From the NCBI GenBank assembly GCA_021732145.1, contig JAKFVN010000003.1:62001-126000 (forward strand): a stretch of DNA of 64,000 nt, written 5' to 3'. Each line of letters begins with the position of its first letter. Position 1 is the stretch's first letter. The notes beneath the pieces were generated by a model. The model worked only from the letters and a program-made list of their open reading frames with translations. It was not told where the DNA came from and made no database searches. A program made the translations under genes and the position numbers. This document shows, in pieces, positions 10,232 through 60,815 of the stretch. This DNA is from Alphaproteobacteria bacterium. Lineage in GTDB: Bacteria > Pseudomonadota > Alphaproteobacteria > UBA9219 > RGZA01.

Positions 10232-11824
10232 ATGCAAAAGCCCCTCTCAGAGCCGCAGATATTCGCCATCAGCATAGGCGTGCTGCTGCTTTGCGTGACA
10301 GTTGCCTATAGCAACATCTTCCATAATGCGTTTCTGCTGGATGATGAATTCCTTATCCAGAAAAACCGTTACCTGAACGGCTTCCAGTTTCTGCCATTCA
10401 TCTTCACGTCATCATCCACTTCAGGCGCTGCGGGAATTGATTCATTCTACCGCCCGCTGCAAACGGTGATTTATCTGATTACCAATCAGCTGTCCGGATT
10501 ATCCACCGCCGCTTTTCATATTCCGAATTTAATCCTGCATATGCTGAACACCTGCTTGGTGGTCAGCCTTGGCTTGCGCCTTGGCATTGCGCGCGTGCCA
10601 GCGTTTGTCGCAGCGCTTCTATGGGCGCTGCACCCCATGCACACCGAAGCGGTGACATATATGAGCGCGACTGCCGATACGCTCTATGCCTTTTTCTGCC
10701 TGTGCGGGCTTGCGGTCTTCATCCAAGACAACACGCGTCGCACCATGCTGCTTGCCTGCGGGGCGTTTATTCTTGCACTGTTATCAAAGGAAACCGCGCT
10801 GGTATTTCCGTTGCTGGCCATAGCCTGCATTTACCGCATGGATGCCCAGCGCCACAGCATCAAGCCCTATTTGAAAACATGGCCGTTATGGGTGATTGCG
10901 CTTATCTACATTATCCTGCGCATGACCCTTTTGAAACTGAACGGGCTTGATTTTTACAAGGCGCAAAACATTTATACCGAGCATTTCGTTGTTCGCTTCT
11001 TCACCTTTGCAGCGACCCTGCCGGATTACCTTGCGCTGATGTTCTATCCCGCTGGCTTGCATTTCGACCGCGCCTTTCCGGTTTATGCAGATATGTCCGA
11101 TACCAAGGTTATCATTGGCATCGTCATCTTTACTGCATGTGTGGTTACGGTCCTTTATTCCTTCATCAATAGAAAATCCGATGCTGCATGGATTTGCATC
11201 ACATGGGGGCTGTTATGGTTCGGGTTCGCGCATGTGCTGCATACGGGGCTTTTATTGCCCGTGAATGCGTTTTTTCTGGAGCATTGGATGTATCTGCCCA
11301 GCATCGGCTTGTTTCTTGCGTTGTGTGAACATGGCGCGCATTCGATCAACCGGCTTAAATCAGACACCGTGCAGGCGCTTAGTGCATGTGCCGTCATCAT
11401 CGTGGCTGGCACGCTGGGCGTGCTTGCCTATCGCCAAAACGCGGTGTGGGCGACACCGCTTTCGTTTTATTCAAACATTCTGAAATATGGCGGGGAAAAA
11501 GCGCGCGTTCATAACAACATCGCTATGGCCTATGATGATGCGGGCGATAGCCAAGCTGCAATTAAGCATTACACGCGGGCGATTGAGATTGAAGATAACT
11601 ACGCGCAAACGCGCTATAACCTTGCGCTGCTCTTGATGAAAACATCACCCGGCAATGCATCACAAGCCATGAAGCATTTACAGCGCGCGGTTGAGATTAA
11701 TCCGGATTTTTTCCAGGCCTATAAGGTCATGGGCCAGATTTATGAAGCGCAAGGCGATAAAGCCAAGGCCAAGGAAAACCAGCTTAAGTTTCTGAATCTG
11801 ATGAAGACGTATTTGCAGTACTAG
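10232..11824 (+). CDS. TMTC-like polytopic membrane protein with C-terminal TPR repeats (putative GT-C glycosyltransferase)
   Basis: 530 residues. About ten hydrophobic helices fill residues 10-395, followed by three TPR units (about 415-525: RVHNNIAMAYDDAGDSQAAI, QTRYNLALLLMKTSPG, QAYKVMGQIYEAQGDKAKAK). The first periplasmic loop has an acidic pair after helix 1 (FLLDDEF), as in GT-C enzymes that use polyprenyl-phosphate sugars. SFYRPL, HPMHTEAV and EHWMYLPSIGL match the bacterial relatives of TMTC/O-mannosyltransferases. The donor and acceptor are unknown. The ATG at 10232 has no strong ribosome-binding site. Confidence 0.8.
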   Translation: MQKPLSEPQIFAISIGVLLLCVTVAYSNIFHNAFLLDDEFLIQKNRYLNGFQFLPFIFTSSSTSGAAGIDSFYRPLQTVIYLITNQLSGLSTAAFHIPNLILHMLNTCLVVSLGLRLGIARVPAFVAALLWALHPMHTEAVTYMSATADTLYAFFCLCGLAVFIQDNTRRTMLLACGAFILALLSKETALVFPLLAIACIYRMDAQRHSIKPYLKTWPLWVIALIYIILRMTLLKLNGLDFYKAQNIYTEHFVVRFFTFAATLPDYLALMFYPAGLHFDRAFPVYADMSDTKVIIGIVIFTACVVTVLYSFINRKSDAAWICITWGLLWFGFAHVLHTGLLLPVNAFFLEHWMYLPSIGLFLALCEHGAHSINRLKSDTVQALSACAVIIVAGTLGVLAYRQNAVWATPLSFYSNILKYGGEKARVHNNIAMAYDDAGDSQAAIKHYTRAIEIEDNYAQTRYNLALLLMKTSPGNASQAMKHLQRAVEINPDFFQAYKVMGQIYEAQGDKAKAKENQLKFLNLMKTYLQY

Positions 11825-11840
11825 CTATTTGCTGGCCAAC

Positions 11841-13646
11841 TTATTTACTAGCCGTGCGCACAATTTCATAGGACGGCCATTCGCCGCGGCTAAGCGACGC
11901 AATCGCGCCCAGCGGCTTTCCAAAACGCACGCGATAGGATGCATAGGTTGCCAATACCTTTTGCACGTAATCACGCGTCTCCTTTAATGGCATGCTTTCA
12001 ATGAACAGTAACGGGTCTTTGCCATGTCGCTCATCATTATACAATTGCTGCACCTTGCCCGGGCCGCAATTATAGCCCGCGATAATCAGCAGCAGGTTTC
12101 CATCAATACCGCTCATGCCGGATAGATGCTGGATGTAACGGTCACCCAGCGCAATGTTCGCGGTCGGGTTAAACAATGTGCCGCTGCTGCCCACGGTAAT
12201 ACGCTCGGCCGTGCCGGGCATTATCTGCATAATGCCGCGCGCACCGCTTGGGCTGCGTGCCGTTGGTTCAAAACGCGATTCGTTCCATGCAATCGCCATG
12301 ACCAAGGCGGGGTCGGATGTAAGACCGCCAGCGGGCTGCCAAGGCAGCGCAGGATATGAACCGCGCGCAAATTTGCGTGGACGCATGGAAAGATTTGGCA
12401 AGACCGCGGCCTGGCTTAATGCTTCCAGTGCATCCTGCAATTCGGGCTTATCGCCAAGGCTTTGCAGTTCGCGCAAGGCTAATTCCTTTTCGCCGATTTG
12501 CAATAATGCAAGGCCGCGTGCGCCGGCGCGCGTCTGGCTAAGCTTTACAACCTGCTGCTTGGTTAATGTTGGCTCCCGCCATACATCGAGCAGCGCCTTG
12601 TCATCGCTGGCCCTGCGCGCCAATGCCAGCATGCCGTAATAGCTGTGCGGGTCGGATGCGGCTTGTTCATAATAATACGCCGCCAAATCGGTTTGCAGGC
12701 TTTTCTCGAACGAACGCGCTGCCCAGAACGCAGCCGCATTTCGGTTCACATCAGGCACATTTTCTGCCTTCGCGATGCTTGCAAAATTACGGGATGCTTC
12801 TGCATAATCCTGCACGGCAAAAGCAGAGAGGCCTTTGACCCATGCCGGATAATAGGCCTCAAAGGGTTCATCGGTTCCAACATCAACATCGGTAAGTTTT
12901 TTCAAGACTTCTTCAAACCGACCTGTGCGCCATAAATTTTCGGCCGAAAATCCGCGCGGCTTTTTCCATTCCACGGTTTCGGCCATCATCGGCCTGCCCA
13001 TAGCGGGCGGGGTGATAATTTTGGCAACAGGTGGCTGGGTCAGCTTCACATCGCTGGTCACGCGCATGGAAAGCGCTTTCTTATAGATACCCTGTGCCTG
13101 CGGGTAATCGCTGTAACGGCGCAGCCATTCGGCCAATTCGCCATATTTCAAATTCGGGTTGCGCGGATGCAGCAAAAACAGGGACTGCGCAACACCAATC
13201 AACTCGCCATTTTTTATGTCGCGCGCAATAACTTCCGCATCATCAAGGCGGCCGTCTTTCAGCGCGGCAAACAATTTGCGGTAATTTTTTTCGTCCGATG
13301 CATTAAGCAGCTTGGCCATTTCCGGCACAGGCGCGGTGGCTTCAGCCTCCTCCTGCTGTTTCATGCCGCGTACCAGATTGCGCGTCTTGGCTGGCTTTCG
13401 GCTTGGCACGGTCACAACCGGCGCAACCACAGCGTTGGTGGCCACGACGGGTTCCGCTTTACGCGTCCATTTCTGGATGAGCGAGAGCGTTTCCTGGCCA
13501 AGCTTGCCAAGATTAAAATCTTGTAATGAGATTGTTGGTTCTGCGGCGATACCCAGGCTTAGCCATGCGCCAAGCATTATTGCGGGTACAAGACGCAGGA
13601 ATTTTCGTGTTTCCTGCACCTGCCGCTTCGTTTTATGAAGCACCAT
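11841..13646 (-). CDS. Soluble lytic murein transglycosylase (Slt70-like)
   Basis: 601 residues. A signal peptide or anchor (FLRLVPAIMLGAWLSLGIAAEP) is followed by a long alpha-helical superhelix (about 100-400, typical of the Slt ring) and a lysozyme-like SLT domain (about 435-575). The catalytic glutamate is E456 in AIAWNESRFEP, followed by SGARGIMQIMPGTA and the active-site strand IIAGYNCGPGKV. It cleaves the MurNAc-GlcNAc bond of peptidoglycan in the periplasm, giving 1,6-anhydro ends. Length and domain order are normal. It is monocistronic. Confidence 0.94.
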   Translation of the reverse strand: MVLHKTKRQVQETRKFLRLVPAIMLGAWLSLGIAAEPTISLQDFNLGKLGQETLSLIQKWTRKAEPVVATNAVVAPVVTVPSRKPAKTRNLVRGMKQQEEAEATAPVPEMAKLLNASDEKNYRKLFAALKDGRLDDAEVIARDIKNGELIGVAQSLFLLHPRNPNLKYGELAEWLRRYSDYPQAQGIYKKALSMRVTSDVKLTQPPVAKIITPPAMGRPMMAETVEWKKPRGFSAENLWRTGRFEEVLKKLTDVDVGTDEPFEAYYPAWVKGLSAFAVQDYAEASRNFASIAKAENVPDVNRNAAAFWAARSFEKSLQTDLAAYYYEQAASDPHSYYGMLALARRASDDKALLDVWREPTLTKQQVVKLSQTRAGARGLALLQIGEKELALRELQSLGDKPELQDALEALSQAAVLPNLSMRPRKFARGSYPALPWQPAGGLTSDPALVMAIAWNESRFEPTARSPSGARGIMQIMPGTAERITVGSSGTLFNPTANIALGDRYIQHLSGMSGIDGNLLLIIAGYNCGPGKVQQLYNDERHGKDPLLFIESMPLKETRDYVQKVLATYASYRVRFGKPLGAIASLSRGEWPSYEIVRTASK

Positions 13647-38865: not shown

Positions 38866-40590
38866 TTACTTTATATTGCGGTGAATCTGTGCCTTGTCTT
38901 TCCATTGTTGGGACAGCGCGCGTCTATCTGCCTGCACGCGCAAAATGCTGTCCAGCGTTTCTTCGGCAAAGCTGCCGCGCAACACCACAATCTGATTGCG
39001 CAACGTTGCAATAAACGGCGCGGTAATATGCTTATCCCAGCCGGTATTATTGGCGGTCGATACCAGTTTGACAAGCTGGTAGGATTTTGCGCTATCGGTT
39101 TTTGCTGCTTTCACCAGATGCATTATCGCACCCTGGAATGCCGCACTTGTCACGCGCTGCGCTGGCGGCAGCGTTGCATCAAGGCGCATCAGATGCATCA
39201 TGGTCAGATTGCTGTCGATGGTGGAGCCTGCATTGGCATCAACCATATAAATATTGGCTAAATGCGCGAAATGCGCGATCAGGTTCTTGGCCTGCAGCCC
39301 TTCGCCCGCCTGTGCATAGGCCTTTTTAAACTCGTCGTCATATGAAAAATCTTTTATAACAGCATAAAAACCTGCCGGATTTTTTGCAGTTGCAATCAGC
39401 AAATCAGTATAAACCTTTTCCATGCCTGGAATACTGCGTTCGGCATATTGCTTTTGGCGCGCAATATAAAAAACTTGCGTGGAAGGCAATGCAAGGTTCG
39501 TATAGCGCTGTATAAAAATATTTTTGATGATATCGGCTGTCATCAGATTGCCGACCGCTTTTTCCCATACGGGGGAGCGCATTTGCTGCGCCATCGTGTC
39601 TTCCATGCCTGCGCGGCTTTGTTCACTTGCCAGCGCATAAACGCGGTTGATGGCCGCAAATGTATTGTCGACCGTGTTAAATTTAATGGTATCTATGAAC
39701 ATGGTGCGCAAACTTATGCCCGCATCTTGATCCACGCGCAGGCCAAGCTGGAATAAATGCCAAAGCGGTGATTTGCCATTGGGTGTGTTGGGCATGAACC
39801 CGCCCGCCACATGCCCTAGCGAGGCAGCGCCTTCCAGCGTGAATAACCCTTGCAAATCTTCGGGCTGAAATGTGCCTTTCTTTAATTCATCATCAAGCGC
39901 TTTCAATGCATTCGCATCATAGGCATATTGCGTGAGCAATTCGTACCCCAGCACGGCGGTGATAAACTGGTTATTGGGTTCAGTTGTAATAAAACCATTT
40001 TCATTCGGCTTGGTGGTCACCAATGCCGATGCAACTGCAATGCCCAAATCCTTGCGGAACAATTCCGCATCGGCTTTGGAAAGCTTAGCGATACTGCGCT
40101 GCATCAGCCCGCCAAGGCGCGGCAGATCAAGACCAAAGCTGTTGCGGTTGGCAGAAAACGGGCTGTAAAAACCGGTATAACCATATTTCACATAATGTGC
40201 GGCCAGCAGCAAAAACATTTCCGCATCACCGCGCTGCACCAGTTCATTGGCCAGTGTTTCAACCCATTGGATGGTGAGTTGTTTTTCCTTGCGCGTTTTC
40301 AGTTTTTCATAATGGGCGAATAACCTGCCCAGATATTGCGGGCGCGGCTCGCTATCGCCCCATCCGGTGAATGCCGTTTGCCATTCCTGCGCTAAAATGG
40401 ATTTGGGGGTTTTCTTACGTTTAGTGTCCAGTTCTTCAAGGCGATGAAAAACTTCTTCTTCCCCCACATCGGTTGTATGTTCTTGCGCGGTTGGTGCTTT
40501 GGTTGCTTGGGGTTGCGCAGGGCGCGTGCTGAGCGTCAGTGCCGCAGCTGTAATTGCCGCCAAGAGAGCGAGGTTGGTAATCCGTGCCAT
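38866..40590 (-). CDS. Unknown exported 574-residue protein
   Basis: I do not recognise a family. A signal peptide (ITNLALLAAITAAALTLS) is followed by a Pro/Ala/Thr-rich linker and a long, apparently all-helical body rich in Lys, Asp, Gln and Ala without obvious repeats or cysteines. Distinct segments include HYVKYGYTGFYSPFSANR and LGHVAGGFMPNTPNGKSPLW. It may be a periplasmic helical scaffold, but no enzyme motif supports a role. It stands alone between purD (converging) and hslU. Confidence 0.8.
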   Translation of the reverse strand: MARITNLALLAAITAAALTLSTRPAQPQATKAPTAQEHTTDVGEEEVFHRLEELDTKRKKTPKSILAQEWQTAFTGWGDSEPRPQYLGRLFAHYEKLKTRKEKQLTIQWVETLANELVQRGDAEMFLLLAAHYVKYGYTGFYSPFSANRNSFGLDLPRLGGLMQRSIAKLSKADAELFRKDLGIAVASALVTTKPNENGFITTEPNNQFITAVLGYELLTQYAYDANALKALDDELKKGTFQPEDLQGLFTLEGAASLGHVAGGFMPNTPNGKSPLWHLFQLGLRVDQDAGISLRTMFIDTIKFNTVDNTFAAINRVYALASEQSRAGMEDTMAQQMRSPVWEKAVGNLMTADIIKNIFIQRYTNLALPSTQVFYIARQKQYAERSIPGMEKVYTDLLIATAKNPAGFYAVIKDFSYDDEFKKAYAQAGEGLQAKNLIAHFAHLANIYMVDANAGSTIDSNLTMMHLMRLDATLPPAQRVTSAAFQGAIMHLVKAAKTDSAKSYQLVKLVSTANNTGWDKHITAPFIATLRNQIVVLRGSFAEETLDSILRVQADRRALSQQWKDKAQIHRNIK

Positions 40591-43254: not shown

Positions 43255-43914
43255 CTAAACCACGGGCGCGGGTGCGGTTGCAGCCAAACCACTTTTGCGA
43301 ATATGGCCGCGCACCGCGCACCATTTGCCCGCTTCCATAATAATACCATCTACCTGCTGCTCCAGGCTTAGCGGAGCAACTTCCGCTGCAGCTGCAACGG
43401 GTTTGGGTTCAAGCCTGACAGGTTTCAAACCAATGCTTGGCGCAACGCTGTTATACAATCGCTTCATGGCCAGCGTGGCCGCGCTTGGCTTTGGTGGTTC
43501 AACTGGTTTCTTTACTGTTTCTTCGCGCGGGTTTTGCTGGCCGCGACCCAGCGCAATGTTTTGTTTTTCGCGCACGGTAAAGGCAAAAATATCATGCTGC
43601 GGCAATTGAACTTCACGAATATCCGCGCCAAGCGTATGCAGGCGCAACTGCACATAAGTATCAAAGCCAGCATGCGGCGCTTTTACATGAATAACCGTTG
43701 CTTCCATGCGGCCTTCGGCAGCTTCCAGCAGCATTTTCACGGCTGTGACCAAGCGCGCGGCTTCCTGGAACTCGTATTGTTTCAGCCTGGTCTCGAGTTC
43801 AATCAGGGTATTGGTATTCGCGGCTTCAATCATCGTGGCACGAAGGTCAAGGCCTGATTGAACGCCCGTTGATACTAATCGGGAAACATCGGCGCGCGGT
43901 GGTGCTGCTGGCAT
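43255..43914 (-). CDS. Unknown 219-residue cytoplasmic protein
   Basis: No known family recognised. Residues about 25-115 look like a folded helical and beta domain (ELETRLKQYEFQEAARLVTA ... FDTYVQLRLHTLGADIREVQ). A Pro/Lys/Glu-rich linker (about 125-145) leads to a Lys/Val/Ala-rich C-terminal part with a single tryptophan-cysteine segment (EAGKWCAVRGHIRKSG). No signal peptide or membrane helix is seen. It is a single gene with a terminator behind it, between asd and the Rsh gene on the same strand. Confidence 0.72.
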   Translation of the reverse strand: MPAAPPRADVSRLVSTGVQSGLDLRATMIEAANTNTLIELETRLKQYEFQEAARLVTAVKMLLEAAEGRMEATVIHVKAPHAGFDTYVQLRLHTLGADIREVQLPQHDIFAFTVREKQNIALGRGQQNPREETVKKPVEPPKPSAATLAMKRLYNSVAPSIGLKPVRLEPKPVAAAAEVAPLSLEQQVDGIIMEAGKWCAVRGHIRKSGLAATAPAPVV

Positions 43915-44003: not shown

Positions 44004-46247
44004 TTAACGGTTTTTGGCGCGTTCAACACTAATCATCAGCGGCGTGGAGCGGATGCCCGCCATGATGGTGGTCAGATGCTGCACGTTGGAAACTTCCACA
44101 TCCACAAACACATCGAAGAAATCAACGCTACGGTTGGTGATTTTCAAATTGGTGATATTGCCATTCGCCTTGCTGATCGCGCCGGTTAGGTTTGCTAGCG
44201 CCGATGGCAGATTTGCAATCACTACATTCAAACGGCCAATCACGCTGCCTGCATGGAATGCGCTGTCATCCCATGCCACGTCAATCCAGCGTTCGGGCTG
44301 GCTTGCAAAGCTTTCCAGCGTATCGCAATCGGTTGTGTGAATGGTTACGCCCTTACCTGTCACCACGATGCCAACAATCCGGTCTCCTGGCAGCGGATGG
44401 CAGCAGCGCGCATAATGCACGGCCATGCCGGGGATAAGACCGCGCAGCGTAAGCGGTTTGGTTTTTTTATCTTTTTCTTTTTCAGCCTTGGGGTCGCTTT
44501 TCTTGGCGGGTTTTTCAGGCTGTTTGGGCTGGTGCTGCGGATAAAGCGCGCGCAATACATCGCGCGCGGAATGCAGCGATGCGCCAATATTGGCATATAA
44601 ATCATCCAAATCTTCGGCCTGGAATTTGCCAACCACCGCTTCCAATTCTTTTTCATGGAATGTCAGGCCTTCTTCAGCAAACAATTTCTGCAACATGGGT
44701 TTGCCCAATGCCACATATTCGCCGCGCTGCTGCTGGCGCACAAAGCGGCGGATGTGTGAACGTGCTTTTGCCGAAACCACAAAGCGTTCCCATGCGGGTG
44801 ACGGCGCACCGGTTTTTGATGTGATGATTTCAACTTGGTCACCGTTGCGAAGTGATGTGCGCAATGGAACCATTCTTCCATTCACCTTCGCGCCAACGCA
44901 TTTATCGCCAACTTTACTATGCACGGCATAGGCAAAATCCACCGGCGTTGAACCGCGCGGCAAGGCGATTAAATCGCCCTTGGGCGAGAAGCAGAACACC
45001 TGGTCCTGGAATAGTTCAAGACGCGTGTAATCAAGGAATTCTTCAGGGCGCTGCGCGCTTTCCACAATATCCAGCAATTCGCGCAGCCAGCGATATTGGC
45101 GGCCATCGGTCTTTTCATCATCCTGCTTATAGGCCCAGTGCGCGGCCACGCCGAGTTCCGCCACCTCATCCATGTGCTTGGTGCGGATTTGAATTTCAAC
45201 GCGCTGCTTTAATGGGCCGATAACGCCGGTGTGCAAGCTTTGATAGCCGTTGGGCTTTGGCGTGGAAATAAAATCCTTGAAACGGCCCGGCACCACTGAA
45301 TACTGGCTATGGATGATACCAAGTGCATGATAGCAATCGGCATTGCTGTCCACGATGATGCGGAAGGCGATGATGTCCGATAATTGCTCGAACACGATAT
45401 TCTTGCGCTGCATCTTTTTCCAGATGGAATACGGCGTTTTTTCGCGGCCAATAACCTTGGCCTTTAATCCCGCCTTATCCATCACGCCTTGCAAATCGGT
45501 AATAATGGTATTGACGACATCGCTGCCTTCACTGCGCAGGAAGTTCAACCGCGCCAAAATACTATCGCGTGCTTCCGCATGCAGCACGGAAAACGCCAGA
45601 TCTTCCAGCTCTTCCTGCATTTGCTTAATACCCATGCGCTGCGCCAGCGGCGCATAGATTTCCAATGTTTCCATCGCCTTCATGCGGCGCTTTTCCGGCT
45701 TCTTCACATGGTGAATGGTGCGCATGTTATGCAAGCGGTCGGCAAGTTTCACCAAAAGCACGCGGATATCTTCCGCCATCGCTACCACAAGCTTGCGGAA
45801 ATTTTCCGCCTGTTGCGCTTTCTCGCTTTGGAATTCAAGGCGCGACAGCTTGGTTACGCCTTCCACCATGTGTGCAACTTCAGAACCGAACATATCGGTC
45901 AGCTGTTCCTTGGTGGCACCGGTATCTTCAATCGTATCATGCAGCAGCGCCGTGGCAATCGACGCGCTATCCAGCTTCATCTCGGTCAAAATGCTGGCAA
46001 CTTCCAGAGGGTGCGAGAAATACGGGTCGCCGCTGTGACGCATTTGCGTGCCATGCGCCTTCATCGAAAACACATAGGCCTTGTTCAATAATTCTTCATC
46101 GACTTTGGAATCATACGCGCGAACGCGGTCAACCAATTCATATTGGCGGATCAGCGGTTTTTTCGGGCGTGCCATCACAGCGGCGGCTGCAGGTTCAGCG
46201 CCGGCGGTTTCTTGCTGTGGTTTGGTATCGTCCGGTGTCATATGCAT
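44004..46247 (-). CDS. spoT: Bifunctional (p)ppGpp synthetase/hydrolase (Rsh, SpoT/Rel)
   Basis: 747 residues with the full long-Rsh order. The HD hydrolase is at about 45-200 (H79 in YFSHPLEVA; H103-D104 in LLHDTIEDTG). The synthetase is at about 240-360 (GREKTPYSIWKKM, TPKPNGYQSLH, EIQIRTKHM). A TGS domain (CFSPKGDLIALPRGSTPVDF) and a C-terminal ACT domain (LPSALANLTGAISKANGNIT) follow. Both catalytic sites look intact, so it should make and degrade (p)ppGpp. It is separated by a MIT-like palindrome from marC upstream. Confidence 0.96.
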   Translation of the reverse strand: MHMTPDDTKPQQETAGAEPAAAAVMARPKKPLIRQYELVDRVRAYDSKVDEELLNKAYVFSMKAHGTQMRHSGDPYFSHPLEVASILTEMKLDSASIATALLHDTIEDTGATKEQLTDMFGSEVAHMVEGVTKLSRLEFQSEKAQQAENFRKLVVAMAEDIRVLLVKLADRLHNMRTIHHVKKPEKRRMKAMETLEIYAPLAQRMGIKQMQEELEDLAFSVLHAEARDSILARLNFLRSEGSDVVNTIITDLQGVMDKAGLKAKVIGREKTPYSIWKKMQRKNIVFEQLSDIIAFRIIVDSNADCYHALGIIHSQYSVVPGRFKDFISTPKPNGYQSLHTGVIGPLKQRVEIQIRTKHMDEVAELGVAAHWAYKQDDEKTDGRQYRWLRELLDIVESAQRPEEFLDYTRLELFQDQVFCFSPKGDLIALPRGSTPVDFAYAVHSKVGDKCVGAKVNGRMVPLRTSLRNGDQVEIITSKTGAPSPAWERFVVSAKARSHIRRFVRQQQRGEYVALGKPMLQKLFAEEGLTFHEKELEAVVGKFQAEDLDDLYANIGASLHSARDVLRALYPQHQPKQPEKPAKKSDPKAEKEKDKKTKPLTLRGLIPGMAVHYARCCHPLPGDRIVGIVVTGKGVTIHTTDCDTLESFASQPERWIDVAWDDSAFHAGSVIGRLNVVIANLPSALANLTGAISKANGNITNLKITNRSVDFFDVFVDVEVSNVQHLTTIMAGIRSTPLMISVERAKNR

Positions 46248-46489: not shown

Positions 46490-47110
46490 CTAATGCATCG
46501 CTTGAATCAGGCCTTTTGCCCCATCAGCGATGAATTGAATGGCCATTGCTGCTAATAAGATACCCATCAGCCGCGCCATGATCTGAATGCCGCCACTGCC
46601 CAGCACGGTTTTTAACCGCTGAACGGCCTTCATGCACGCATAGGATGCAACCACCGCCAGCGCCATCGCCGCATAGACTTGCAACTGGTCAAACCATGCG
46701 TGCGATTTATTGGTAAGCAGGATAATCGCGGTGATGCAACCGGGGCCAGAGAGCAATGGAATGGCAAGCGGGAACACGGCGATGTCGCCGCGGTCGGAAT
46801 AAACCGAGCCATCCTTTTGAATGTTCTGCTGGTCATGGTCACCCATCAGCATGCGGAAGGCGGTCACGAACAATAACAAACCGCCCGCGATGCGGAATGC
46901 ATCGAGCGTGATGCCGAGCATCGACAGAACAACCGAACCCATCAAGCCGAAAAACAGCAATACGCCCGCGCCAACGATGCAGGATTTTTTGGCAATCGCT
47001 TCGCTTTCCGTATGGGCAAGGCCAGCCGTCAGCGCGCCATAAACCGCCGCTGTTCCAAGCGGATCGATGATGACGGTCAGTGTTACCAGCGCGGAGAGGA
47101 AGGTTTCCAT
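46490..47110 (-). CDS. MarC-family integral membrane protein
   Basis: 206 residues with six predicted helices, starting FLSALVTLTVIIDPLGTAAV and including GVLLFFGLMGSVVLSMLGIT and PLAIPLLSGPGCITAIILLT. The conserved proline and glycine patterns (IDPLG, PLLSGPG) match MarC/UPF0056. The function of MarC is unsettled; despite the name it does not account for multiple antibiotic resistance. It is 15 nt downstream of the second Rsh gene and probably in its operon. Confidence 0.92.
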   Translation of the reverse strand: METFLSALVTLTVIIDPLGTAAVYGALTAGLAHTESEAIAKKSCIVGAGVLLFFGLMGSVVLSMLGITLDAFRIAGGLLLFVTAFRMLMGDHDQQNIQKDGSVYSDRGDIAVFPLAIPLLSGPGCITAIILLTNKSHAWFDQLQVYAAMALAVVASYACMKAVQRLKTVLGSGGIQIMARLMGILLAAMAIQFIADGAKGLIQAMH

Positions 47111-47125
47111 GAAGGGATGATAAAT

Positions 47126-49114
47126 TTAGGCGAGGTCTGAACTGGTGGTGGGTGATTTGCGATTTCTAAAATAGCGGCTCAGTTCACGATATGCATCAGG
47201 ATTCGTCAATGCGTCCAGAATAACTGATTGGCGGTGTGAATTACGACCTCTTTCTTTTGCCAGAATGGCGGGGTCAAGTTTGATTTCCACCCGATCACCG
47301 TTATGCAGGCGGATGCGCATGTGTTCAATATCCGGCTTTTCGGGATCAAGAATGATCTCCGATTTCAAATCAAGCCCATGAAAGAAATTCGGGCGTTCAA
47401 TATGCGTAACACCCACCGCATGCGCAACAATGCGCAGGCGCGCCGCCAAATCCGCCACGGTCGCGCCCGCTGGCAGATAAATGATGTCATTATTCGATGC
47501 ATAGACAGCGATCAATTCCTTAACGGCTTCGGTTGTCTGGCCGCCCTTGGCATTGCGGACAATTTGTTGTTTGCCTGCAAATTCAAACGGCAGCAGTTTT
47601 TGGCATGCTTCGCGCATCACCAGCAGCCATGTCAGTTTCAGTTTGGCGGCTTTGCGCACCACCTTGGGTTTTGCTGCATCGGCCTTATACGCCACATGCG
47701 CCGCAGGCCCATATTCATTCACATGCAGCATGCGTTCACTAAGCGCCTGCAGCTCGATTTCCTTGGGCTTGCGCTGATGCTTGTTCTTGCGCGGCTGCTT
47801 GCCTTGCGGCGTTATGCTTACATTTTCGGTAATGGCATAGGTGCCATGCACCGCGCTATAGCCGTTTTCCTTCGGCGTGGTTGCATAATCCTTGTCGCGC
47901 TTGGTGTCGGGAACAAAATTGGCAATCGCGTCGATGCGGGTATTGCGCATCAGCATATGAATGTGCAGCGATTCTTCTTTTTCAACTTCGGCAATCGTCT
48001 TGCCGGTCTCTTCCGCGCGGCGCGCAATATGGGTATCCGATAGAATAACGCGCGTGCCGATAAAATCATGGATGAGATTATCATCCTCTAGAATCTTTTT
48101 AATCTCGGCATGCCATTTTGATTTGGGGACTTGGCGTTCCTCCATCTTGGAGGCAACTTTATTGTAAATCGATTCAATCGATTTAAGACGCACTTCCACC
48201 CTGATATCGCCCTTGTTATAACGGTCGTCCGTGTCATCGCCTTCCACGCGCAGCAGCGCGTCTTCAATTTGCGCCTTGATGTTTTCCAGAACCGCGCGCT
48301 GGCTGCGGTCATTGTGGCGGAAGGAAAAGCGTTTGGTATAGCGTTCGCGGAACGCTTTTATTTCGCGGAACACGCTGGGGTTTTCAATGCGCAGCACCGT
48401 ATTCGCCATGGCGTTGCGCAGCAGCCAGAAACCCGCCATCGATGCCAATGGCACATAAATATCTTTCACATGCTGGATTAAATTAAGCCGTTCCTGCAGC
48501 GATTGCACGCGGTAGGAATTCATCACCTTCACATGCATTTCAGTCAGGCGGATAAGCGATGCGCGCGGTTCCGATGCGGATTCAAACAGCACCATCATCA
48601 AATAACGCTCGCGGCGCTCTTCTTCGCTTTGCGTTGGCACTTGGCGTTCCGGCGAGCTGCCCAGCGATGGCTTTAAATTCAAATTACGGTGAATAATGGT
48701 GCTGCGAACAATGTTCGTCACTTCTTCACCAAATCTTTCCTGAAGGATGGCAAGGTAGTCCGGATTATCTCTGGTGTATGGCGGTGGCTTCATCAACTGC
48801 GCATAGGGCGGATAAAGCAATGCCGCAAGCAACGTCGCGCGGTCGGCCTTGGCATGACGCGCCAGCGCTTCAACCACCGCGATACGGTCTTGCAGAATAT
48901 CATCCTGCGGTTCCAGCTTATGCTCGGCAATTAAATGCCTTGCCCACGCATTGGCTTCCATCGCCAATTGGAAATCATTGGCCATATCAAAATCAGGAAG
49001 ATACGCACCAACCTTATTCAGCACAGCTTCAATGCGAATGGCATCGGTGTTGACTTCGCGTCGTAATAAACGTCGTCCCCGAATTGCAGCTTTATAGGTA
49101 GGTCGCTTGGCCAT
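47126..49114 (-). CDS. Second, divergent Rsh-like protein (degenerate hydrolase, putative synthetase and TGS)
   Basis: 662 residues; only the first is a full Rsh. The part matching the HD hydrolase (about 50-230) has lost its histidine-aspartate pair (LLAALLYPPY at 96-104 where an Rsh has LLHDTIED). The synthetase part (about 300-480) keeps R309 and K311 (VRLKSIESIY), D350 (LIHDFIGTRVIL), Y419 and H423 (TPKENGYSAVH) and E454-x-Q456 (EIELQAL), though the conserved arginine after that is absent. A TGS-like domain is at about 540-615 (IIYLPAGATVADLAARL). No ACT domain is seen. It follows rpoZ and precedes marC and spoT. Confidence 0.78.
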   Translation of the reverse strand: MAKRPTYKAAIRGRRLLRREVNTDAIRIEAVLNKVGAYLPDFDMANDFQLAMEANAWARHLIAEHKLEPQDDILQDRIAVVEALARHAKADRATLLAALLYPPYAQLMKPPPYTRDNPDYLAILQERFGEEVTNIVRSTIIHRNLNLKPSLGSSPERQVPTQSEEERRERYLMMVLFESASEPRASLIRLTEMHVKVMNSYRVQSLQERLNLIQHVKDIYVPLASMAGFWLLRNAMANTVLRIENPSVFREIKAFRERYTKRFSFRHNDRSQRAVLENIKAQIEDALLRVEGDDTDDRYNKGDIRVEVRLKSIESIYNKVASKMEERQVPKSKWHAEIKKILEDDNLIHDFIGTRVILSDTHIARRAEETGKTIAEVEKEESLHIHMLMRNTRIDAIANFVPDTKRDKDYATTPKENGYSAVHGTYAITENVSITPQGKQPRKNKHQRKPKEIELQALSERMLHVNEYGPAAHVAYKADAAKPKVVRKAAKLKLTWLLVMREACQKLLPFEFAGKQQIVRNAKGGQTTEAVKELIAVYASNNDIIYLPAGATVADLAARLRIVAHAVGVTHIERPNFFHGLDLKSEIILDPEKPDIEHMRIRLHNGDRVEIKLDPAILAKERGRNSHRQSVILDALTNPDAYRELSRYFRNRKSPTTSSDLA

Positions 49115-49145: not shown

Positions 49146-49171
49146 AAAAAAACCCCGCATTTCTGCGGGGT
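49146..49171 (-). terminator. Rho-independent terminator after rpoZ
   Basis: ACCCCGC (49152-49158) pairs with GCGGGGT (49165-49171) around ATTTCT, with a run of seven T on the minus strand. It lies between the rpoZ stop and the second Rsh gene, so transcription of the latter depends on read-through or a further promoter. Confidence 0.88.
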
Positions 49172-49208
49172 CTAGGACATGGTTAAAACGAATAAGCTGA
49201 CGTTTTGC

Positions 49209-49628
49209 TTATTCCTTAAGATCGTCGGGCGATGCGTCTTCGAATTGCATTTCGTTCAATTCTTCATCGGCTGCGCCTTCGTCTTCATCTTCTTCGTCTT
49301 CATCAGCGCCAGCCATGCCTTCGGCCATTGCCGCGGCGGCGGTCGCCCATTTTTGCTCTTCGGCCATCAATTCTTTTAATTCTTCTTCGCTGCTGTCGCT
49401 ATCCACGCGGCGCTGGTAACCCTTCACCAGATTTTCCTTCATGCCATCGAGGCTGAGTTTTTCTTCCGCGATTTCGCGAAGCGCAACCACCGGATTTTTA
49501 TCGCGGTCGCGATCAACTTGCAGGGCTGCGCCCGATGCAATTTCGCGTGCGCGCTGGCCAGCCATCATCACTAATTCAAAACGATTGGGAACAAGTAAAA
49601 TGCAATCTTCAACAGTAACGCGTGCCAT
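49209..49628 (-). CDS. rpoZ: DNA-directed RNA polymerase omega subunit
   Basis: 139 residues. The N-terminal [25 protein letters not shown] and [14 protein letters not shown] match omega. The C-terminal third is a highly acidic, variable tail ([18 protein letters not shown]). In E. coli omega forms part of a ppGpp-binding site on RNA polymerase, which makes its place beside two Rsh genes meaningful. It is closed by a terminator but heads the set of minus-strand genes down to spoT. Confidence 0.95.
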
Positions 49629-59510: not shown

Positions 59511-60815
59511 ATGACTGGCATCAACCCCATTTTATTGATGCAGGGCATGTCGGCTGCGGCCATCGAAGCGGTCAGCCCGCAAAACACCATCCCCAAAGCG
59601 CTTGCCACACTGGAACGCACAAGCGGGCGCACGCTTGTCATGTGCATTGGCAAGGCTGCCGCGCAAATGGCGCAAATTGCCGAGGGCATTTTGCTGGATA
59701 CGATTGGCGCAGATAATTTCTCCGGCTATGTCGTTACCAAACACGGCAATGAAGCGCCGCTGAAGCGTTTAAAAACCATCACCGCCGGTCACCCGCGCGC
59801 GGATTTGGATAGCGCGGCGGCAGCAGAATTGTTGCTGAAAGAAGCTGGAACACTTGGCCCTAATGACCGCTTGCTGGTCTTGATGTCAGGCGGCGCATCA
59901 GCGCTCACCCTGTTGCCAGCAGATGGTTTGACGTTCGATGATGTCACGGTTGTGAATGATGAATTGCTGCGCGGTGGCGTGCCAATTGATGGCATGAACA
60001 CGCTGCGCCGCCACGTATCGCGCTTTAACGGTGGCCGTTTGGCCCGTGCCGCAAACGGCGCTGACATCATCACCTTTGCCGTATCGGATGTGCCGGGTGA
60101 CCGCCCTGAAATTATCGGCAGCGGCCCAACCGCGCCCGATGCGACAACATTCGCCGATGCCAAGAAGGTTGTAAACGATTATGGGCTTAGCATGCCACAA
60201 AATGTCACCGATCATTTGGCAGTTGCCAGCGATGAAAGCGTAAAACCGAATGATGCATTATGGCGCAGCAAATACCGTTTTGAAGTGATTGCCAGCAACC
60301 GCCATGCATTAAATGCCGCAGCCGAATATGCGCGCCAGCAAGGCGTGACGCCAATTATCATGGATGAAGTGATTGCGGGTGATGCGGCAGCCGAAGCACA
60401 GCAATTTGCAAATATTGCGCGCACCAGAACCTATAAGGGTCAAATTATTCAAGGCCCTGCCGTTTTACTGCGCGGCGGTGAAGCGGTTGTGAAACTGCCA
60501 AAAGATTTTTCAGGCCCAAATTCAAATCAGCGTGGCGGACGTATTGGCCATGCCGCGCTCAGCTACCTTATTCACGATCCCGATGCATTCGCTGGGTTTG
60601 TTGCAACCGATGGCAGCGATGGCACCAGCGGCCATTCCGCTATTTTTCTAGCGCCCAATACGATGCAGGAAGCGGTTAAGCAAGGCCTCGACCCGCTTGC
60701 ATCCCTAACCCAGTTCAACTCCGCCGCGTTTTTTGATGCGGTTGCGGCATCCGTTCCTGAACGCCCGACAGGAACCAATGTCAATGAAATCTATATCAGC
60801 TATATTCCAGTTTAG
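59511..60815 (+). CDS. Glycerate kinase / MOFRL-family protein (GckA/TtuD-like)
   Basis: 434 residues of the DUF4147-MOFRL type. The N-terminal part has VMCIGKAAAQMAQIAEGIL, VTKHGNEAPLKRLKTITAGH and a phosphate-loop-like VLMSGGASALTLLPA; the C-terminal MOFRL region has FVATDGSDGTSGHSA. Proteins of this family phosphorylate glycerate at C2 and are often mislabelled hydroxypyruvate reductase; they join the serine or glycolate routes to glycolysis. It lies 3 nt after pheS and before pheT, an unusual position. Confidence 0.9.
   Translation: MTGINPILLMQGMSAAAIEAVSPQNTIPKALATLERTSGRTLVMCIGKAAAQMAQIAEGILLDTIGADNFSGYVVTKHGNEAPLKRLKTITAGHPRADLDSAAAAELLLKEAGTLGPNDRLLVLMSGGASALTLLPADGLTFDDVTVVNDELLRGGVPIDGMNTLRRHVSRFNGGRLARAANGADIITFAVSDVPGDRPEIIGSGPTAPDATTFADAKKVVNDYGLSMPQNVTDHLAVASDESVKPNDALWRSKYRFEVIASNRHALNAAAEYARQQGVTPIIMDEVIAGDAAAEAQQFANIARTRTYKGQIIQGPAVLLRGGEAVVKLPKDFSGPNSNQRGGRIGHAALSYLIHDPDAFAGFVATDGSDGTSGHSAIFLAPNTMQEAVKQGLDPLASLTQFNSAAFFDAVAASVPERPTGTNVNEIYISYIPV

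Follow-up and report, generated by a model that had tools for sequence, protein, structure and literature searches.

A rapidly diverging second long RSH with a lost hydrolase site and conserved synthetase residues beside rpoZ in one alphaproteobacterial order

The window (the whole 64,000-nucleotide stretch analysed here, from an alphaproteobacterial contig) encodes a second long RSH, which we call R2, near a canonical bifunctional Rsh (Rsh1). R2 consists of a pseudo-HD domain, a synthetase domain and a TGS-like region; its hydrolase residues are lost and its synthetase residues kept, it changes far faster than Rsh1, and its site beside rpoZ varies in content between related genomes. Judging from these sequences and the analyses below, R2 is rather probably a working synthetase-only long RSH, RelA-like in its logic, that forms a separate lineage with a hypervariable input side.

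The R2 gene and its locus

R2 is read from an ATG start at the coordinates that the sequence-only reading had given, on the minus strand. The features of the locus are:

49209..49628, minus strand: rpoZ (RNA polymerase omega; Pfam RNA_pol_Rpb6), left border of the variable site
49150..49173, minus strand: terminator-like hairpin after rpoZ, conserved in the congener G002
47126..49114, minus strand: R2, a 662-codon ORF (662 aa) for a long RSH with pseudo-hydrolase, intact synthetase motifs and TGS-like region (domain, residue and profile evidence)
48425..48955, minus strand: R2 pseudo-HD domain, residues 54-230 (Pfam HD_4, 41.3 bits; catalytic residues lost)
48809..48814, minus strand: R2 Y101-P102, replacing the His-Asp pair (alignment with canonical Rsh)
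47678..48190, minus strand: R2 synthetase domain, residues 309-479, with R309, K311, D350, Y419, H423, E454, Q456 and H473 (Pfam RelA_SpoT, 44.9 bits, and residue invariance)
47270..47524, minus strand: R2 degenerate TGS-like region, about residues 531-615 (profile-profile alignment)
46490..47110, minus strand: marC family gene (Pfam MarC), right border of the variable site in the window's genus
44004..46247, minus strand: Rsh1, canonical bifunctional Rsh with HD, synthetase, TGS, RIS and ACT domains (domain and residue checks)

The minus-strand order is thus rpoZ, R2, marC, Rsh1; rpoZ and R2 are 94 bp apart, R2 and marC 15 bp. Because the hairpin between rpoZ and R2 is strong and is kept in the congener, R2 probably has its own transcription start or relies on read-through; sigma-70-like matches between the two genes did not rise above chance. 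Next to R2, whose neighbours are rpoZ and marC, there is no gene for an antitoxin-like partner, a mobile element or defence. Rsh1, the bifunctional enzyme that had been proposed to accompany R2, keeps every hydrolase and synthetase residue checked, and was intact in all R2 genomes where its sequence was complete.

R2 is a true RelA/SpoT homologue. Both Pfam matches exceed their curated cut-offs (27 for RelA_SpoT; 27.2 for HD_4, which lies upstream of the synthetase domain), and chance is excluded by a score of 150 bits against a profile of the other nine full-length R2s found in the order, the best of 200 shuffles reaching 5.4. Identity between R2 and Rsh1 is 21-28%, and with the NCBIfam model TIGR00691 it scores 67.3 bits, below the curated cut-off of 499, where Rsh1 scores 726. 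Only four of the ten R2s reach HD_4 at E 0.1, and only one reaches Pfam TGS, for which the window R2 has no match. Its TGS-like stretch, ending in LHNGDRVEI, was seen by profile-profile alignment (one row was common to both profiles, which inflates the score and leaves the alignment usable). The C-terminus lies about 47 residues further on, with no helical, zinc-finger or ACT domain; Pfam searches of the window R2 and the other R2s gave no AH/RIS or ACT match, bearing out the earlier statement that ACT is missing, and the alignment likewise contains insertions relative to Rsh1, as had been described.

Hydrolase and synthetase residues

In an alignment with canonical Rsh proteins the HD pair of R2 is indeed Y101-P102, and all eight hydrolase residues checked are lost. 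The positions R44, H53, E81, D82, D144 and N148 (Rel_Seq numbering, placed by the alignment) read L, D, A, Q, E and K, and the metal site of bifunctional enzymes (H53, H77, D78 and D144) reads D, Y, P and E and is thus not preserved. Across the ten R2s the eight hydrolase residues are kept in a mean of 1.4 members, with H77 and E81 in none and D78, H53 and D144 each in one or two.

The synthetase residues behave otherwise. The six named from the sequence alone (R309, K311, D350, Y419, H423 and E454) match active-site columns of 30 canonical Rsh proteins, and the same six are invariant or nearly so in an alignment of the ten R2s made without any canonical Rsh. The mutual identity of these ten is 15-39%, and their sole invariant columns (R309, K311, D350, Y419, G469, H473 and K477) are synthetase residues plus two positions nearby; E454, Q456, H423 and K319 stand at 90%. 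In Rel_Seq numbering, the equivalents of R241, K243, D264, Y308 and H344 are kept in 10/10 R2s and those of K251, H312, E323 and Q325 in 9/10; single-site departures are E323 to D in G003 and H312 to K in G013, and four members have T, R, V or S at the K297 position. In a retention test limited to columns invariant in 26 Rsh1 proteins, 11 catalytic or substrate-binding synthetase residues were kept in a mean of 9.0 of the ten R2s, versus 3.3 for other synthetase columns, a contrast reached in 0 of 20,000 permutations. Two essential carboxylates of Rel_Seq, where D264G and E323Q abolish synthesis (PMC13299517), correspond to D350 and E454 in the window R2. At the RXKD/EXDD motif, which separates Rel/SpoT from RelA (PMC3153485), R2 reads RDKD (residues 406-409), that is, the RXKD type.

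A dead hydrolase next to an apparently complete synthetase thus seems well supported by residue loss and retention across ten R2s. Such a pattern is difficult to account for without selection on the synthetase reaction, or at the least on binding of its transition state, although retention of the key residues might serve only to bind substrate.

An AlphaFold2 model of R2 built with 30 canonical Rsh rows (mean pLDDT 64.6, pTM 0.64) supports a Rel-like overall fold and predicts the pocket at low confidence: the HD part and the core strands of the synthetase are mostly at pLDDT 75-92, G-loop residues 393-441 mostly at 35-60, and everything past residue 469 is low. The best 25 Foldseek matches of the model were all Rel, RelA or SpoT, and against the catalytic domains of 7oiw its TM score, on the target, was 0.71.

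Distribution of R2

A profile of the ten R2 proteins detected R2 in 11 of the 33 genomes of the window's alphaproteobacterial order. Ten of these are full-length, with intact frames of 476-730 aa, and the eleventh (G023) is a fragment; the carrier genomes measure 1.1-3.1 Mb and keep a full Rsh1. R2 lies directly after rpoZ in eight genomes of three families (G000, G002, G003, G006, G010, G012, G014 and G024) and just upstream of Rsh1 in most carriers. Three carriers, of genus g5, have it off-locus, near dnaK and a holA-like gene:

L102:7485-9296, L104:3248-5200 and L103:3829-4467: off-locus R2 copies of this one genus

These copies and the R2 of G003 are the closest relatives of the window's R2. 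The longest frame, in G012 (L084:4250-6442, 730 aa), has a longer C-terminal part with an apparent second TGS-like stretch, and the 476-aa R2 of G010 stops soon past the synthetase domain.

In 18 other genomes of the order rpoZ and Rsh1 are directly adjacent with no R2 between them. In the congener G001 marC directly follows rpoZ; its Rsh1 contig ends at the Rsh1 start, and the gap upstream could hide an R2. At named alphaproteobacterial loci outside the order with both genes visible, Rsh1 and rpoZ were always neighbours without R2. Our class sample held 241 genomes, 238 of them outside the order, and in those 238 we found no second long hydrolase-dead RSH; the second synthetase-domain matches in 11 of them were ten proteins without an HD domain and one second canonical Rsh copy. 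Within this sample R2 is restricted to the order. The earlier remark that few bacteria carry such a protein agrees with this for the R2 class, but a second or hydrolase-deficient long RSH is not unprecedented, given rickRel[hS] and RshB, RshC and RshD (PMC3153485). Relatives of R2 were not found in phage, plasmid or viral-contig records, and a PHROGs search returned nothing significant. In two other alphaproteobacteria we noted proteins of about 1000 aa (L220 and L221) in which an N-terminal alarmone-synthetase domain is followed by a long uncharacterised stretch.

Rate and phylogeny

Branch lengths on the same trees put the rate of R2 at 8-14 times that of Rsh1, a steady ratio across five genome pairs (G000-G003, G010-G012, G006-G012, G006-G010 and G014-G024). 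For the one close pair, G013/G023, 151 codons gave dN 0.42 versus dS 2.3, the latter saturated. Branches of the R2 tree are very long, and R2 monophyly was neither supported nor rejected. In the synthetase-domain tree E. coli RelA grouped only with the R2s of family f3, at UFBoot 60 and on long branches, and the tree of HD plus synthetase domains gave no support for grouping R2 with E. coli RelA. GC3 of R2 was below that of Rsh1 in all eight on-locus carriers checked, in the window only slightly (0.56 versus 0.60); this was not taken as a sign of foreign base composition, since relaxed codon optimisation would have the same effect. Taken as a whole, the sequence-only reading of R2 stood in part. 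It missed the chief feature, namely that R2 diverges so quickly and that a single site holds non-orthologous alleles, as described below.

Different alleles between rpoZ and marC

The congeners G000 and G002 have R2s that are only 16% identical in a joint alignment and that BLAST does not match at E 0.01, whereas the rpoZ and marC genes on either side are about 96-97% identical. DNA identity of about 87% continues as far as the first bases of R2 and picks up again at the start of marC. Collinearity between the window and G002 extends beyond 55 kb; most gene pairs there are 78-98% identical, R2 being without a usable match. Synonymous divergence of the neighbours between the window and G002 is only about 0.5-0.9, so neutral drift since the split is unlikely to have erased R2 similarity; dS is 0.48 for rpoZ and 0.67 for marC versus about 0.9 for most other window genes, a dip that recent recombination in the flanks could produce, but short genes elsewhere are equally low.

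A clade of this family's three R2s was rejected by AU tests (p 0.007 and 0.013), while the bare sister pair G000+G002 was rejected on the synthetase set (p 0.035) and not on HD plus synthetase (p 0.11). Together with the retained similarity of the flanks, the AU rejection indicates that the R2s of G000 and G002 are probably not simple orthologues. Extreme drift of a single orthologue is unlikely in view of the rejected three-R2 clade; it would also imply an R2/Rsh1 distance ratio of hundreds-fold (from a saturated R2 distance of >7 against an Rsh1 distance of 0.01-0.02, hence an unreliable figure) versus 8-14 in the five other pairs. Either one R2 replaced the other through the conserved flanks, or ancestral tandem copies were lost differently; under either history the slot holds interchangeable, very different R2 alleles.

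Function and alternative explanations

As a working synthetase-only long RSH, R2 would move pyrophosphate from ATP to a guanine nucleotide, yielding (p)ppGpp, or possibly to a related acceptor. It would be unable to hydrolyse the product, whose removal would fall to the bifunctional Rsh1 encoded two genes downstream, just as RelA depends on SpoT for product removal (PMC9974481). The pseudo-HD domain may serve as a regulatory arm, by analogy with RelA. On the ribosome, Rel and RelA work through their helical, zinc-finger and ACT/RRM domains; the C-terminal parts that make these contacts are absent from R2, and a different trigger is therefore probable, R2 presumably answering some input other than that of ribosome-bound Rel/RelA. 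Fast change would then fall on the input side and not on the chemistry, with the gene being lost, relocated and replaced within the order. The architecture, the loss and retention of residues, the restriction to the order within the sample, the rate and the variability of the site are shown by the data above; that R2 is active, what it makes, that its pseudo-HD domain exerts control and that Rsh1 clears the product are what we infer.

The rate and replacement of R2 would also be explained by a role in conflict, R2 then being an alarmone synthetase of the toxin or abortive-infection type, with a sensing part that is diversified against phages or competitors and alternative alleles swapped at one chromosomal site like those of restriction-modification systems. 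The 16% identity of the G000 and G002 R2s between flanks about 96% identical fits such a role, as do the end of DNA homology at the ends of R2, the adjacency of rpoZ and marC in G001 and the patchy distribution, and its synthetase relatives toxSAS and CapRel are known effectors (PMC11782079, PMC9712102). We nevertheless found no direct sign of it. A PADLOC match of R2 to PDC-S33 was discarded as an indication of phage defence, being unspecific (Rsh1 and E. coli RelA and SpoT all score better); the surroundings of R2 and the searches for phage, plasmid and viral relatives, described above, offered nothing of the kind; and R2 keeps the HD-synthetase layout of long RSHs, unlike toxSAS. We consider this role unlikely. 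As a related and doubtful speculation, R2 may be a site-specific hypervariable alarmone synthetase, with species of one genus carrying alleles that look non-homologous, or none, at the rpoZ-marC/rsh slot and diversity kept by conflict with phages, between predator and prey or among kin; if so, part of the stringent-response machinery would have been drafted into an arms race.

R2 might instead make no product and, as a regulatory pseudoenzyme, bind nucleotides and tune Rsh1 by heterodimerisation. In favour of this, the R2 gene lies near that of Rsh1, the RSH fold is retained, and the pseudo-domains of RelA and of Moraxellaceae SpoT are regulatory (PMC9974481). Pure binding, however, needs neither the Mg-binding nor the proton-accepting carboxylate (D264 and E323 of Rel_Seq), which are kept with one E to D change in ten; Rsh1 changes slowly and R2 departs from it quickly; and the copies of genus g5 lie elsewhere, near dnaK and holA. 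Because the residues are conserved across ten very divergent R2s, an active synthetase is favoured over a pseudoenzyme, which we regard as improbable. Still more improbable is a decaying rsh duplicate heading for loss. R2 does change fast and is missing from many relatives, entirely so at the locus in at least 18 genomes of the order; against decay, ten genomes hold intact frames, selective retention of the synthetase residues is strong, and the G013/G023 comparison gave a dN well below dS, within the limits of 151 codons and a saturated dS.

Comparison with known systems

Among the closest known systems, the RelA of beta- and gammaproteobacteria likewise combines a dead HD domain with an intact synthetase in a long RSH, and is accompanied by a hydrolase-competent RSH in the same genome. 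R2 differs in having RDKD instead of EXDD, in lacking the helical, zinc-finger and ACT domains, in sitting after rpoZ, as SpoT does and RelA does not, and in being patchy, allele-variable and about 11 times as fast as its partner. It has a RelA-like residue pattern, yet is no RelA by motif, domains or location. rickRel[hS] is also an alphaproteobacterial synthetase with a very divergent HD domain (PMC3153485), but was described in Rickettsiales, whereas R2 occurs in other genomes that keep a full Rsh1; we set the two apart by description. RshB, RshC and RshD are divergent second long RSHs beside Rel, some RshC without ACT, but are written [HS], both domains being taken as competent, in contrast to the dead hydrolase of R2 (PMC3153485); R2 appears more divergent than these and is again set apart by description. 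toxSAS and CapRel share with R2 a synthetase-only, patchy character within the RSH superfamily, but have no HD domain and are neutralised by a separate or fused antitoxin; R2 carries both a pseudo-HD domain and a TGS-like region, and we saw no antitoxin for it. Alphaproteobacterial Rsh1 has the same HD-synthetase-TGS order as R2 and, unlike it, keeps both active sites and the full C-terminal domains.

The superfamily is a known one, and the new part is a synthetase-only long RSH that is confined to one order and occupies a variable slot beside rpoZ. Long RSHs are described as little prone to horizontal transfer, owing to the many interactions in which they are embedded (PMC3153485); R2 runs opposite, being fast, coming and going, and replaced between sister species, with its catalytic residues fixed. 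If R2 is active, the RelA-like division of labour would have arisen once more, outside beta- and gammaproteobacteria, and the ten R2 sequences would form a natural set that strips the synthetase to its essential residues. This raises the testable question of what input could drive an alarmone synthetase to the kind of diversity seen in immune genes.

Other variable genes in the window

Other places in the window also differ from G002. Between asd and Rsh1, 43255-43914 (minus strand) encodes a 219-aa protein without a Pfam family, opposite which G002 has other ORFs (L074 10303-11328, plus strand, and 11345-12013, minus strand). The gene at 38866-40590 (minus strand), for a 574-aa protein without a Pfam family, is another fast-changing gene, with 47% identity to its collinear G002 counterpart where adjacent genes have 90-97%. 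At 59511-60815 (plus strand) a glycerate-kinase-like protein (DUF4147/MOFRL) shares only 37% identity with the protein at the collinear place in G002, which suggests gene replacement.
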